Positions 44,653 through 50,055 of a DNA stretch of 57,273 nt are shown here, piece by piece. The position numbers and the translations under genes are program-made. Within the stretch, counting starts at the first letter, position 1. Every line of letters starts with the position of its first letter. Under the pieces are notes generated by a model. It searched no databases, had not been told where the DNA came from, and saw only the letters and a program-made list of their open reading frames with translations. This DNA is from Bdellovibrio sp. ZAP7 (GTDB lineage: Bacteria; Bdellovibrionota; FAC87; UBA2466), in assembly GCA_945878405.1 (NCBI GenBank), contig CAMCTJ010000012.1:1-57273 (forward strand), in the 5' to 3' direction.

Positions 44653-44982
44653 ATGAAAAAGTTAATCGTTAGTTTGGCAGTTCTGGGCTCTGTGGTGAGC
44701 TCAGTTTCTCAAGCTCAATATATTTATCCAGCTCCGCTGGTTCCCGTTTATCCTGCTCCGATCGTTGCTTATCCAGCACCTGTTGCTTATCCAGCTCCGG
44801 TCGTATCAGTGTTTCCAGCACCTGTTGCTTATCCAGCTCCAGTAGTTCCTGTTTACCCTGTCGCACCTGCTTGCGGTTGGGTCACGGTTCCTACTTCTGC
44901 TTGGCAGTGGGTTCAAGGACCTTTCGGTGGTTGGCACCTACGTTGGGTTACAACGTTCCAAAATCAGCTGATTTGCCGCTAA
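44653..44982 (+). CDS. Secreted YPAP-repeat protein
   Basis: 109 residues. The signal peptide is MKKLIVSLAVLGSVVSSVSQA. Residues about 24-74 are repeats of YPAPV (YPAPVAYPAPVVSVFPAP...), followed by a short conserved-looking tail with WVTVPTSAWQWV, Trp-rich, and two cysteines (ACGW, LICR) that could pair. GGAGG precedes the ATG. A terminator follows at 45006-45045. Pro/Ala/Tyr repeats suggest an extended wall-spanning or surface spacer. No family recognised. Confidence 0.75.
   Translation: MKKLIVSLAVLGSVVSSVSQAQYIYPAPLVPVYPAPIVAYPAPVAYPAPVVSVFPAPVAYPAPVVPVYPVAPACGWVTVPTSAWQWVQGPFGGWHLRWVTTFQNQLICR
44772..44840. repeat. In-frame direct repeat in the YPAP coding region
   Basis: A perfect 27-base repeat occurs at 44772-44798 and 44814-44840 (period 42 bases = 14 codons), within looser CCAGCTCC-type repeats over 44728-44850. 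It reflects recent in-frame duplication of the YPAP unit and could vary between strains. Confidence 0.8.
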
Positions 44983-45977
44983 AAATATTGGCTTAAATCG
45001 GAAAAGGAGATGCCGCCCTTAAAGGGTTTGGTGTCTCCTTTTTTTATTCCTTCGAGAGCTTCCTTCACTCTGACATTTCCAGGATCTCTTCTCTGAGCTT
45101 CTACTAAATAATCTAAAGCTTCTTGTCCTCGTCCGTCTTTAAAAAGAGCCCAAGCGGCATAATAGGGACCTCGCCACTCATTAGGGAAATCTTCCGAAGC
45201 CTCTTTAGCTTTTTCTTGAGCATGGGCAGTATTATTGGAACGAAATAATTCGCTCATCAGTTCGGCTTCTAAAAGTTCAGGATCAGAGTTACCCAGCTCT
45301 TTTGCTTTTTGAATCGCCTCATCGAGTTTTCCCCAAATATCACTGTTTCCGGCTGGTGCCTCTTTAGTTGCCTGATAAAGTCGACCCAAAACTTGGGCTT
45401 TTCTCGCTTCATACAAAGAGGGCTCTAATTCCGAGAGTTTTTCGGCTGCTTTCGCGCTCAGTTCGGGATTGATTTCACGGTTAGCAAGCATCTTATCAAT
45501 CAAAATTTTTGGATCATTGATCTGTTCTACTTTGAGATTTCGAGTCAAAAAATCTGAAAGACCTGCTCGGTAATAATAGAGGGCGACTAAACACTGAGCA
45601 GAATTTGCATCAGACCCGCACGTCTTATTGAAATGCTCATGTAAATTCTTTAAAGCAGCAGGAACGGAACTGCAGCGCTCGTTTTTGGAGGCTGATTTGA
45701 TATCTGGAAATTCGGTCTGCCCTCGACTTAAATCAAAACCCCTTAGAGTATTCCAAAACTCCAAACATTCTGGTGTTACGTCTTTTCCCACTGGGGAAAT
45801 AGCATCCCGGGGAGCTCGATAAAGAACAGCCATCTGCTCTCGATTTTCTTGGGTCCGAACCTCGGCGTCCCCGTCATTTTCATTTCTCTGAGCGTCTGAC
45901 GTCTGGGCCAACCCCCACCACAAAACCAGAACAGAAACGAGAACTCCGCCCATAATTAACATATTCTTTTTCGACAC
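44979..45977 (-). CDS. Membrane-anchored TPR protein
   Basis: 332 residues with one N-terminal anchor (NMLIMGGVLVSVLVLWWGLA) and helical pairs typical of TPR repeats, most clear near the end (GPYYAAWALFKDGRGQEALDYLVEAQRRDPGNVRVKEAL). Three cysteines lie in the middle. The GTG start shares its G with the stop of the kinase gene (TAGTG), so it is coupled to it. Its 3' end carries the terminator of the convergent YPAP gene. It may scaffold the kinase at the membrane; inferred from position. Confidence 0.78.
   Translation of the reverse strand: MSKKNMLIMGGVLVSVLVLWWGLAQTSDAQRNENDGDAEVRTQENREQMAVLYRAPRDAISPVGKDVTPECLEFWNTLRGFDLSRGQTEFPDIKSASKNERCSSVPAALKNLHEHFNKTCGSDANSAQCLVALYYYRAGLSDFLTRNLKVEQINDPKILIDKMLANREINPELSAKAAEKLSELEPSLYEARKAQVLGRLYQATKEAPAGNSDIWGKLDEAIQKAKELGNSDPELLEAELMSELFRSNNTAHAQEKAKEASEDFPNEWRGPYYAAWALFKDGRGQEALDYLVEAQRRDPGNVRVKEALEGIKKGDTKPFKGGISFSDLSQYF
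45006..45045 (+). terminator. Intrinsic terminator of the YPAP gene inside a convergent CDS
   Basis: GGAGATGCC pairs with GGTGTCTCC (two G-T wobbles), enclosing a second stem CCCTT/AAGGG, followed by seven Ts on the plus strand. It starts 24 bases after the YPAP stop and lies inside the coding end of the TPR gene. Confidence 0.85.
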
Positions 45978-48682
45978 TAGTTTGCCTTATCTTCTAAAAG
46001 TTCAGTAAATAATACTTGAGCTTCAACTCGACCCCACTCCGAATTTCCAACCATTTTATTCGTAACGAAAAGCCGGTTAAAGTTTGCTACGTAAGCTTTT
46101 CCCATAAAAAGAGCGGGAGCTCTAGGAAGTACTCTTATTTTTCGTTGCTCCAGTTTCTCCCGTAACATTCGGCTCATTTGTTCAGTCACTAACCCAAGAG
46201 AATCAAAGAAATCTAGGTCCTCCTGCTGCAAGCGACGACGCATTTTATTGGTCGCTCCCAAAAGATGATCCACTACAGAAGATTCATAGCTCAGAAAAAG
46301 AACCATGTCGGGAGTTACTTTATCTTCCGAAACAAAGCTAACAACACTCGTAAAACCTCCGTCAAATCCTATGAGATCCGACTGGGAGGATTCTTGAGCC
46401 ATCGTCGCTTTGAGTTCGTATTCCGCCAAGCTCTGCTCGATTACTTGAGGGAGAACCTCAAAATAAGGAGGCGAACTGGAGATAACCTCTTTATTATTTG
46501 CCTCAGTAAATTCTTGAGGAAGTCTAAAGTCTCCAGCTAAATAAAACGAGTAGCCATTAATCTCACATTGAAAACAGTAAGTCGGAATGCCAAGAGCCTT
46601 CATGGGCTCTCCTAAACCATAATAGGTCAAGGGAGCCGAGGGTTGAAGCGTAATACCGACACCTGCACAGGCTTCAGCAAACTGATTCCCCATTAAATTT
46701 CCAAATTCAGTAAGCGATCCTAAAGCTCTTTTGTTGCCGATTTTTTCTTTGGAACCTGTGATGAAAGGATGGATAACTTCCTTTAAAGTAGACTCAGGCA
46801 AATAAATTCCCGCAAAACCTCTTCGGTCTCCGTTGAATTGAATTAACGCTCCATAAGGCATGCCGATGCCTTTTGTAAAATCGACTTCTGGCCGAACACT
46901 AAAAGAGCCATTTTTTGCGAGCGGAAGCAAAAAGTTTTCGACGGCATTTAAATGATACTTACCGATAAAGAGATGGGTTTTATCATCATTACGAGTTGAC
47001 CCCCAAATAAGTTGAAGCATTCTAGACTCGGACCGCCTCAATTTGTTGAGTGAAAATGATCCCTGGGTTCTTGATGCTGTATAAAAGCTTTTGAGTTGAA
47101 ATGCAGCTTCTTGAAGAGTTTGAATCGTATATTCACTCAGAACTATTTTTTCTTCTGAAAGCAGCTTCAAGACTTCTTCAAGGGGATACAAATAACTGAC
47201 AACGCGATTCCACCCCAAAAACCCGCAAATTCCCTTCATGAGGTGAGCAATCCGATAGGCTTCGTAAGCAGACTGGAGGGTCTCTTCTGACCCCAAGGCT
47301 TGGAGGGCCCGAATAAATCGCTCCTGATAATCGGTCAACTCATCTAGGAGCTGTGTCTTTTCCTCTTCTTCTTTTCTCAGAAGTGCGTTCTCGGCAGGCG
47401 CTGAAACGGGCGAAAAATCTTCATTCACAGGAATCAAAAGCTCAAAGGAAGTACCACGAGTAGAAGTAGAGACCAATCGGACGGTTCCGCCAACCGAGTC
47501 TAATGACTTTTTAACGACATCCAGTCCGAGCCCCCTGCCTGAGACAAAATTGGTTTGTTTTCGAGTGGTAAATCCCGGCTGAAAAATAAGTTGGGCCAAT
47601 TCTTCATTTGGTTTTGAGTTGGCTTCTTCAATATTAAAAATGCCCTTAGCAACCGCTCTCTCACGTATCGCACCAAAATCTAATCCCGTACCATCATCCG
47701 AAAAAATAATTCTTAAAATGCCTTGGTTGAAGCTTGCAAGGATTCCAATCCGCCCTGCTGACTTTTTTCCATTTTGTTCTCTACGCAGTGGATCTTCGAT
47801 ACCATGGTCAACTGCATTTCTAATGAGATGCAAGACGGGTTCATAAATGAAATTCAAAAGTGTTTTATGAAGATGAAGCCAAGTACCGGTGAGTTCTAAG
47901 TTTACTTGTTTTCCTTGGTTTTTTGCTAGGTCATTAACCAGTTTTTGAGCCGGCGGAAAAATCGTGTCTAAAGAATCCGTTCGCAATTGGTACAACGAAC
48001 GCTTCATTTTTTTGATTTGGCTTCTCAGCTGACTTCGAACTTCTGGCCCCTGAAGAAGGCGTCTCTCAAGCTGCTCCAGGCTCTGTACCTGTTCGACAAA
48101 AGAATCGATTTGTCCTGAAAAGACTCGGATCTTTTTTGTTTGATCAATTTTGCTTCTCTCTAGGATCTCGCTCTTAAGCTCTTTCGAGGTCGGCTGAAGA
48201 GATACAAACACATTTAATAAGCCGTAGGGAGTCTCCACAGGACAGCGAAACAACCCTGGGCCCCCAGGCACCACCTGATAGTTTTCTCGAAAACCCGTTC
48301 CTTTTCTAAGATCACATCGAAAGGACTCTTCAGAAAATTGCTTTTCAAAATTTTGAACCAAAGTTTCGTGAAGACTCAGCAACCCATTTCTTAAAATGAA
48401 AAGACTTTCATTCTGAGCGCTCCCCGACTGAGTAATTCCCCGAAGAGTTGAGCCATCACAGCCCATTCCAATTCGGCCTTCAAGATCCCCTCGCACCAAT
48501 GCCTCTATCCAAAATTCCTGAGCCACAGGTTCAGACACTTGCTCTAAGGTTCCAAAAACAATTTCCGACTTGAGGATGGGGCAAAGTGATTCAACGAGTG
48601 CTTTTGTAAGAAGATTTTGAAAGGGAAATCTTTCCGAAGTAAATTCGAGAAACTCTATTTGTTTTAGCGCCAGATCACCCAT
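45977..48682 (-). CDS. Unusual CheA-like kinase with CheX-like domains
   Basis: 901 residues. Residues 1-165 resemble a CheX/CheC-like domain. Residues about 190-260 look like a dimerisation helix pair, then a CheA-type HATPase: N-box HLIRNAVDHG at 285-294, DDGTG at 330-334 and GRGLGL at 382-387. An Hpt motif AHLMKG with His480 comes after the kinase domain rather than at the N-terminus. No CheW domain follows; instead two further CheX-like stretches occur (about 575-730 and 740-895). It overlaps the CheY-like gene by 8 bases and the TPR gene by one base. I infer a signalling kinase not tied to normal chemoreceptors. Confidence 0.85.
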   Translation of the reverse strand: MGDLALKQIEFLEFTSERFPFQNLLTKALVESLCPILKSEIVFGTLEQVSEPVAQEFWIEALVRGDLEGRIGMGCDGSTLRGITQSGSAQNESLFILRNGLLSLHETLVQNFEKQFSEESFRCDLRKGTGFRENYQVVPGGPGLFRCPVETPYGLLNVFVSLQPTSKELKSEILERSKIDQTKKIRVFSGQIDSFVEQVQSLEQLERRLLQGPEVRSQLRSQIKKMKRSLYQLRTDSLDTIFPPAQKLVNDLAKNQGKQVNLELTGTWLHLHKTLLNFIYEPVLHLIRNAVDHGIEDPLRREQNGKKSAGRIGILASFNQGILRIIFSDDGTGLDFGAIRERAVAKGIFNIEEANSKPNEELAQLIFQPGFTTRKQTNFVSGRGLGLDVVKKSLDSVGGTVRLVSTSTRGTSFELLIPVNEDFSPVSAPAENALLRKEEEEKTQLLDELTDYQERFIRALQALGSEETLQSAYEAYRIAHLMKGICGFLGWNRVVSYLYPLEEVLKLLSEEKIVLSEYTIQTLQEAAFQLKSFYTASRTQGSFSLNKLRRSESRMLQLIWGSTRNDDKTHLFIGKYHLNAVENFLLPLAKNGSFSVRPEVDFTKGIGMPYGALIQFNGDRRGFAGIYLPESTLKEVIHPFITGSKEKIGNKRALGSLTEFGNLMGNQFAEACAGVGITLQPSAPLTYYGLGEPMKALGIPTYCFQCEINGYSFYLAGDFRLPQEFTEANNKEVISSSPPYFEVLPQVIEQSLAEYELKATMAQESSQSDLIGFDGGFTSVVSFVSEDKVTPDMVLFLSYESSVVDHLLGATNKMRRRLQQEDLDFFDSLGLVTEQMSRMLREKLEQRKIRVLPRAPALFMGKAYVANFNRLFVTNKMVGNSEWGRVEAQVLFTELLEDKAN

Positions 48683-49061
48683 ATTTGACTTCCTTCGTTG
48701 GGGATTTGAGCAGCTCTAAAGCCATTTTTAGCTTATCCAAGGTGATCGGTTTGACCACAAATGAGCGCACACCTAACTCTTCGGCTTTCAGTCTAATTTT
48801 TTGAGATAAACTCGATGTGATCACGATCACTTTTGCATCAGGATCGTATTTAAAAATCTCCTGAGCAGCGTCGATGCCATTGAGCTCTGGCATCACAATA
48901 TCCAAAGTTACCAAATGGGGCCGAGTGCGAACATATTTATCAATGGCTTCTAGCCCGTTCTGAGCTTCTCCTATGACTTGGTAGCCGCATTCCTCTAGCA
49001 GAGAACGCAGCTGTTCCCGAATCGCGACGGAATCATCGACAATCAAAACGGTGTAACGCAT
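48675..49061 (-). CDS. CheY-like single-domain response regulator
   Basis: 128 residues from the ATG at 49061: acidic pair in LIVDDSVAIREQL, phosphoacceptor Asp in LVTLDIVMPELNG, Thr/Ser in VIVITSSLS and Lys in FVVKPITLDK. No output domain. It lies directly upstream of the CheA-like kinase and overlaps it by 8 bases, so it is probably that kinase's phosphoacceptor. Confidence 0.92.
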   Translation of the reverse strand: MRYTVLIVDDSVAIREQLRSLLEECGYQVIGEAQNGLEAIDKYVRTRPHLVTLDIVMPELNGIDAAQEIFKYDPDAKVIVITSSLSQKIRLKAEELGVRSFVVKPITLDKLKMALELLKSPTKEVKYG

Positions 49062-49125: not shown

Positions 49126-49887
49126 TTAAGGTTTTAACTGTAGTACGACGGGGCAGTGATCAGACCCCGAAACTTCGGGTTGATGAGCCACAGCTTTCAA
49201 GCGCTTAGCAAAATCTTGATGGGTCACCCAGTAATCTAAGCGCCAACCGATGTTTCTTTCCCGGATGGTGCGACGGTAGCTCCACCACGTATATTGTTCT
49301 GGAGACGAATTAAAAAGACGGAACCCATCCACATAGCCAGAACTCAAAAGCTTATCCATCCATGCCCGCTCTTGAGGCAAAAAACCTGCATTGTCTTTAT
49401 TATCTTTTGGGTTTTTCAGATCGATTTCTTTATGGGCGATATTAAAATCTCCGCAGAGAAGAATCGGCTTTTTAAGAGAGAGCTGATTTAAGTAAAACAG
49501 CATTTCATCACAGAACTTTAGTTTATAACCCAAGCGCGCATGATCTCTCTGGCTATTGGGAAAATAAGCATTAATCAGAAAAAAGTCGGGGTACTCAAGA
49601 GTCAGAACCCTTCCCTCTCTATCGAACTCAGGCTTGTTTAATCCCCCCACAACTTTCAGCGGCTCTTTTTTTGAATAAATAGCTAACCCGCTATAGCCGG
49701 CTTTTTCCGCCGGATGAAAAAAACTGTGGTACCGCTTGGGATTGATTAACGAAGCATCCAGCTGCTCGGGACGGGCCTTGATTTCTTGTAAACAAACAAT
49801 GTCCGGACTGAGGTCATCAAACCAATTTAAAAAGCCTTTTTCGGCAACTGACCGGAGCCCATTTACATTCCAAGTAGCTAGTTTCAT
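49126..49887 (-). CDS. xthA: Exodeoxyribonuclease III
   Basis: 253 residues: MKLATWNVNGLRS, the metal Glu in CLQEIKA, LLCGDFNIAH, WRLDYWVT and the final GSDHCPVVLQL. This is the ExoIII/AP endonuclease family, acting in base excision repair. The ATG at 49887 is right for the family; an in-frame extension to 50037 runs through the tRNA-Arg gene on the other strand and is rejected. Confidence 0.94.
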   Translation of the reverse strand: MKLATWNVNGLRSVAEKGFLNWFDDLSPDIVCLQEIKARPEQLDASLINPKRYHSFFHPAEKAGYSGLAIYSKKEPLKVVGGLNKPEFDREGRVLTLEYPDFFLINAYFPNSQRDHARLGYKLKFCDEMLFYLNQLSLKKPILLCGDFNIAHKEIDLKNPKDNKDNAGFLPQERAWMDKLLSSGYVDGFRLFNSSPEQYTWWSYRRTIRERNIGWRLDYWVTHQDFAKRLKAVAHQPEVSGSDHCPVVLQLKP

Positions 49888-49891
49888 ACGG

Positions 49892-49920
49892 TAGACGATA
49901 GAAAAACCCTGTGCTAGAAG
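49892..49920 (+). promoter_or_regulatory. Candidate promoter of tRNA-Arg
   Basis: TAGACG and TAGAAG are 17 bases apart, with an extended -10 (TGC). The predicted start is about 8 bases before the mature tRNA. Confidence 0.45.
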
Positions 49921-49934
49921 TAAAGCTTTTCCAG

Positions 49935-50008
49935 GGGTCCGTAGCTCAGTCGGATAGAGCACCAGATTTCTAATCTGGGGGTCGTAGGTTCGATCCCTAC
50001 CGGACCCA
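49935..50008 (+). tRNA. tRNA-Arg (anticodon TCT)
   Basis: 74 bases forming a full cloverleaf: acceptor arms GGGTCCG/CGGACCC, anticodon stem CCAGA/TCTGG with loop TTTCTAA, T-arm with GGTTCGATCC. Discriminator A; no encoded CCA. It reads AGA (and AGG by wobble). It lies between xthA and the ABC exporter genes. Confidence 0.97.
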
Positions 50009-50055
50009 CTTTCTCCTAACACATCCGCTAAATTCAACCGAAACGACTGAATAAT

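Follow-up and report, generated by a model that had tools for sequence, protein, structure and literature searches.

A CheW-less, CheA-derived kinase as a candidate for steering flagella without chemoreceptors in one family of Bdellovibrionota

The chemotaxis kinase CheA is generally regarded as dependent on receptors. What, then, could a CheA-like kinase sense and control when it lacks the CheW domain? A gene raising this question lies in a stretch of 57,273 nucleotides of Bdellovibrio sp. ZAP7 (contig CAMCTJ010000012.1; hereafter, the window), as the second of three overlapping minus-strand genes arranged as in an operon. The first of them (48675..49061) encodes a CheY-like response regulator of 128 amino acids made of a single receiver domain (Response_reg, 1.4e-26), with Asp54 as phospho-acceptor (codon 48900-48902). 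Its best NCBIfam match is CheY, of the chemotaxis type; the acidic pocket (DD), Asp54 and the lysine are kept in 9/9 orthologs, which have T, S or G at the position of Thr-87 (n=9). The end of this gene overlaps by 8 nt the start of the kinase gene (45977..48682, 901 amino acids), which in turn shares 1 nt with a downstream gene (44979..45977) for a protein with a hydrophobic N-terminal segment and TPR similarity (TPR_16, 8.6e-5, below the cutoff). An earlier note on this DNA had mentioned the TPR protein in suggesting a self-contained signalling device. A central role for it in such a device is not supported: the gene adjoins the kinase-CheY pair only in genus g1 (G000, which is the window's own genome, G001 and G002), and G006 has two weaker homologs of it located away from the pair. 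Next to the TPR gene, a small protein with YPAP-V repeats and a signal-like start (44653-44982) is also kept in genus g1.

The kinase comprises, in this order, an N-terminal domain, dimerisation helices, a HATPase domain, an Hpt domain with His480 and two CheX domains. The earlier note had proposed the same order, with CheX-like domains at both ends and no CheW domain, and matches to structures, Pfam families and orthologs bore it out, with the nature of the N domain being probable. The dimerisation helices and the HATPase (P3 and P4; 47408..48145, minus strand, residues 180-425) are of CheA type. HATPase_c from Pfam matched residues 283-420 (8.2e-13), and the PDB matches of this region were led by CheA P3-P4 structures, with E-values of 1.2e-37 for the single protein and 1.6e-51 for the profile of its orthologs; the N, G1 and G2 boxes are intact in 8/8 kinase orthologs. 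The Hpt domain, of the CheA P1 type (47063..47365, minus strand, residues 440-540; His480 at 47243-47245), was matched in the window protein at residues 444-526 with 16.9 bits, below the Pfam cutoff, and in the orthologs of G006, G007 and G009 above it. The ortholog profile matched the CheA P1 structures 2ld6 and 1tqg at about 1e-8, and the motif H480-x-x-K-G is invariant in all eight orthologs. This P1 domain, with its histidine of the phosphorylatable type, stands C-terminal of P4 and not first in the chain. None of the eight orthologs, window protein included, matched a CheW domain at E-values up to 1. A degenerate CheW domain in the flanks was likewise ruled out, the structural matches of the C-terminal fragment being CheX.

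How far is such a protein still a CheA? In a survey of 13,673 CheAs, P1, P3, P4 and the CheW-type P5 were reported in all of them (PMC10782961). Because P5 is missing, the window protein falls outside CheA as surveyed, but its parts derive from a CheA, and the whole should work as a CheA does; proteins without CheW may have escaped recognition as CheA in that survey. Compared with the CheA order P1-P2-P3-P4-P5, its P1, P3 and P4 are homologous, with intact motifs and a CheY partner, whereas P1 follows P4, P5 is lacking, CheX-type domains have been added and most of the kinase-bearing genomes studied here have no receptors or CheW. In a tree of the kinase core, these orphan kinases formed one clade (100/99) with a long stem, whose position among CheAs the tree did not settle. 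Phosphotransfer and phosphatase activities are reported together for the CheA-type protein CheA3 of Rhodobacter sphaeroides (PMC6829392). CheA3 has retained CheW and acts together with CheA4 in a cluster of receptors, and its middle region consists of altered kinase, P2 and Hpt domains, not CheX (PMC10782961). In the CheA3/CheA4 split, Hpt and CheW share one protein and the kinase is in CheA4, whereas here kinase and Hpt share one chain devoid of CheW. We found no description of such a domain order without CheW in the literature searched.

The domains flanking this core were matched with differing confidence. The middle CheX domain (46499..46975, minus strand, residues 570-728) matched the family at residues 611-690 of the window protein with 23.3 bits, where the Pfam cutoff is 27, and exceeded it in G006 (28.8 bits, residues 615-688). 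Its profile alignment to CheX was not significant, and its CheX identity, as read from the sequence, is based on the Pfam matches together with its alignment to the last domain (P 1.3e-5). The latter (45992..46465, minus strand, residues 740-897) was above the Pfam cutoff in G007, G009, G011 and G012. Two structure models of low confidence (pLDDT 43 and 46) were used only where their Foldseek matches were significant. For the model of residues 549-901, all 11 matches with E<=0.001 were CheX/CheC-like (best, 2.9e-6), in agreement with the fold that the earlier note expected of this flank. The N domain (48188..48631, minus strand, residues 18-165) matched no Pfam family, and its best Foldseek match was also a CheC-like protein but non-significant (E 0.15, low-confidence model). 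Nevertheless, when aligned as a profile over its full length with 18 CheX domains, it scored 11.6, above 60/60 column shuffles (mean 3.0, sd 1.9), and its helices and strands are predicted to follow one another in an order similar to CheX, so that a CheX/CheC-type fold is probable.

Orthologs of the kinase occur in 11 of 14 genomes of the family, the window's own included. Seven others are full-length (G001, G002, G006, G007, G009, G010 and G012) and three are pieces at contig ends (G003, G011 and G013). Nearly all these loci have the same neighbours, a block read as prs, rplY, pth, ychF and a glycosyltransferase gene; in G006 this block is ~3 kb away, with other genes in between, and the contig of G013 ends short of the block. 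Wherever the contig reaches, a CheY gene lies upstream of the kinase gene, overlapping or adjacent, so the pairing proposed in the earlier note is conserved across the family. The full architecture was confined to this family among 291 genomes of the phylum. Full-length matches in these genomes came from no other family, and nearly all the outside matches inspected have Hpt before the kinase domain, as ordinary CheA, and one, whose frame is cut by a contig end, had no Hpt match. Viral contigs yielded no relative. A single scan of genome contigs with lineage-specific peptides recovered one relative; the lineage specificity of these peptides makes the reach of the scan beyond the phylum narrow. 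Three flagellated genomes of the family showed no orphan kinase (G004, G005 and G008). The CheA-like protein without CheW of G004 was rejected as an ortholog, being a different kinase (L082, contig C276, 691-2961) that reads as membrane-anchored and has Hpt before HATPase; neither CheW nor MCP was found in G004. G008 encodes FliM and showed no CheW, MCP or sign of the orphan kinase.

The genomes bearing the kinase appear to lack the apparatus to which a CheA would normally belong. CheW was found in none of the family genomes except G003 and G005, and MCPs (MCPsignal) in only one, G003, of the ten family genomes tested (G000-G009). Most of the family either lack CheR or have an atypical form of it, with a partial match in G000, a match inside a 1389-aa frame in G001 and a 313-aa frame in G006. 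FliM was present in 10/10 family genomes tested, and all nine copies with a complete start have at their N-terminus the segment LSQxEID(A/S)LL, the known docking peptide for CheY-P. Since CheW and, in those tested, MCP are missing from ortholog-bearing genomes that encode FliM (G003 excepted), the loss of a normal receptor array, suspected in the earlier note from the kinase alone, is supported genome-wide. Several of the metagenome-assembled genomes that share this absence are >90% complete, which makes incompleteness an unlikely cause. The neighbours of FliM in G000 read as FliL, FliN, FliO, FliP, FliR and FlhB. With FliM and its docking peptide encoded among flagellar genes, the organism is very likely flagellated, with a switch able to bind CheY-P but without a receptor array.

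From the domain content and order, the intact kinase and Hpt motifs, the pairing with CheY, the absence of CheW and MCP and the FliM peptide, we infer an array-independent pathway that leads from this CheA-derived kinase to CheY and, most likely, to the flagellar switch, with CheX domains replacing P2 and P5; we consider it our best explanation and evenly poised between right and wrong. ATP bound at P4 would serve to phosphorylate His480 on the P1 domain relocated behind the catalytic domain, and the phosphoryl group would pass to Asp54 of the CheY encoded directly upstream. CheY-P would then most likely act on the switch through the N-terminal peptide of FliM. CheX-family domains would take the place of P2 and P5. 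Of these, the two at the C-terminus would dock CheY beside the Hpt domain and may, in some lineages, remove its phosphoryl group as well. The N domain, which precedes the dimerisation helices and occupies the input position of sensor kinases, probably controls the dimer and is the best candidate for receiving the signal.

The link of this CheY to the motor is not certain because G000 has three other short, single-domain response regulators among a total of about 20; the motor could be under a different CheY, and the upstream one could act on something else. The kinase gene is not adjacent to flagellar genes, and the flagellated G004, G005 and G008 showed no such kinase. The same chemistry from kinase to CheY might have an output other than the flagellar switch, with CheY-P acting on type IV pili, on polarity or on some other partner, a possibility that we regard as on the unlikely side. 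The abundance of ATPases of type IV pili or secretion (T2SSE-type) would fit such an output, as would the location of the locus and the coexistence of the pair with canonical chemotaxis genes in G003. However, the CheY is of the chemotaxis type and the FliM docking peptide is kept in genomes without any other recognisable chemotaxis kinase, both of which favour the flagellar switch as the target.

A second alternative concerns what the CheX domains do. The earlier note suggested that they are built-in phosphatases for the neighbouring CheY, in which case the protein would be a bifunctional kinase-phosphatase and the balance between the two activities would set the level of CheY-P. Catalysis by CheX requires an ExxN pair (PMC3510030; PMC3035606), and an intact pair occurs in the window protein in the middle domain (E659, 46706-46708; N662, 46697-46699) and in genus g6 in the last domain. 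No standalone CheX was matched in G000, G001 or G002, and a dual function has been suggested for Leptospirae proteins in which CheC/CheX is fused to F1-class CheAs (PMC10782961). These fusions also join CheX-family domains to a CheA kinase, but they have the four core domains including CheW, whereas here CheW is missing, P1 is displaced and the CheX-type domains number two or three. Against the phosphatase, the asparagine of the middle domain occurs only in the window protein, being replaced by S, A, K or R in the other orthologs, even in those 63% identical to it. The last domain has lost the pair in the window protein and retains it complete only in g6, the N domain lacks it in every ortholog compared, and in G001, G002 and G006 none of the domains has the pair complete. 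This patchiness makes phosphatase activity unlikely as the conserved job of these domains, and we judge the bifunctional protein as a whole to be unlikely, with such activity possible in the window protein itself. Glu659 is invariant and the asparagine is not, which fits docking of CheY better than catalysis, and a conserved role in CheY docking or in control of the kinase seems more likely. With respect to CheX phosphatases, the fold of the last domain and the family match of the middle domain are shared, but these domains are fused to a kinase, repeated and mostly deprived of the ExxN pair. G027 encodes a protein of 370 aa (L053, 1258-2367) in which two CheX domains stand in tandem, both with an intact ExxN motif.

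A decaying, functionless relic of a chemotaxis kinase, to which the patchily lost CheX active sites and the long stem branch of the clade might point, is very improbable given full-length open frames in eight genomes, invariant kinase and Hpt motifs and the retention of both CheY partner and synteny.

Returning to the pathway from kinase to flagellar switch, its extended form would be a family-wide, CheA-derived kinase that steers the flagellar motor without CheW or chemoreceptors, uses CheX domains in place of P2 and P5 and senses its signal directly; this we propose tentatively, with somewhat less than even confidence. If true, a CheA derivative conserved without P5 in flagellated, receptor-less genomes would show that the core of CheA is able to turn into an independent sensor kinase, and it suggests a way of steering flagella that needs no receptor array. 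The kinase is also a system in which to test the role of CheX-family domains that are not phosphatases.

Elsewhere in the window, a plus-strand tRNA-Arg gene (49935-50037) overlaps the 5' part of a minus-strand open reading frame (49126-50037) similar to exonuclease III, the gene of which probably starts further downstream than this frame suggests.
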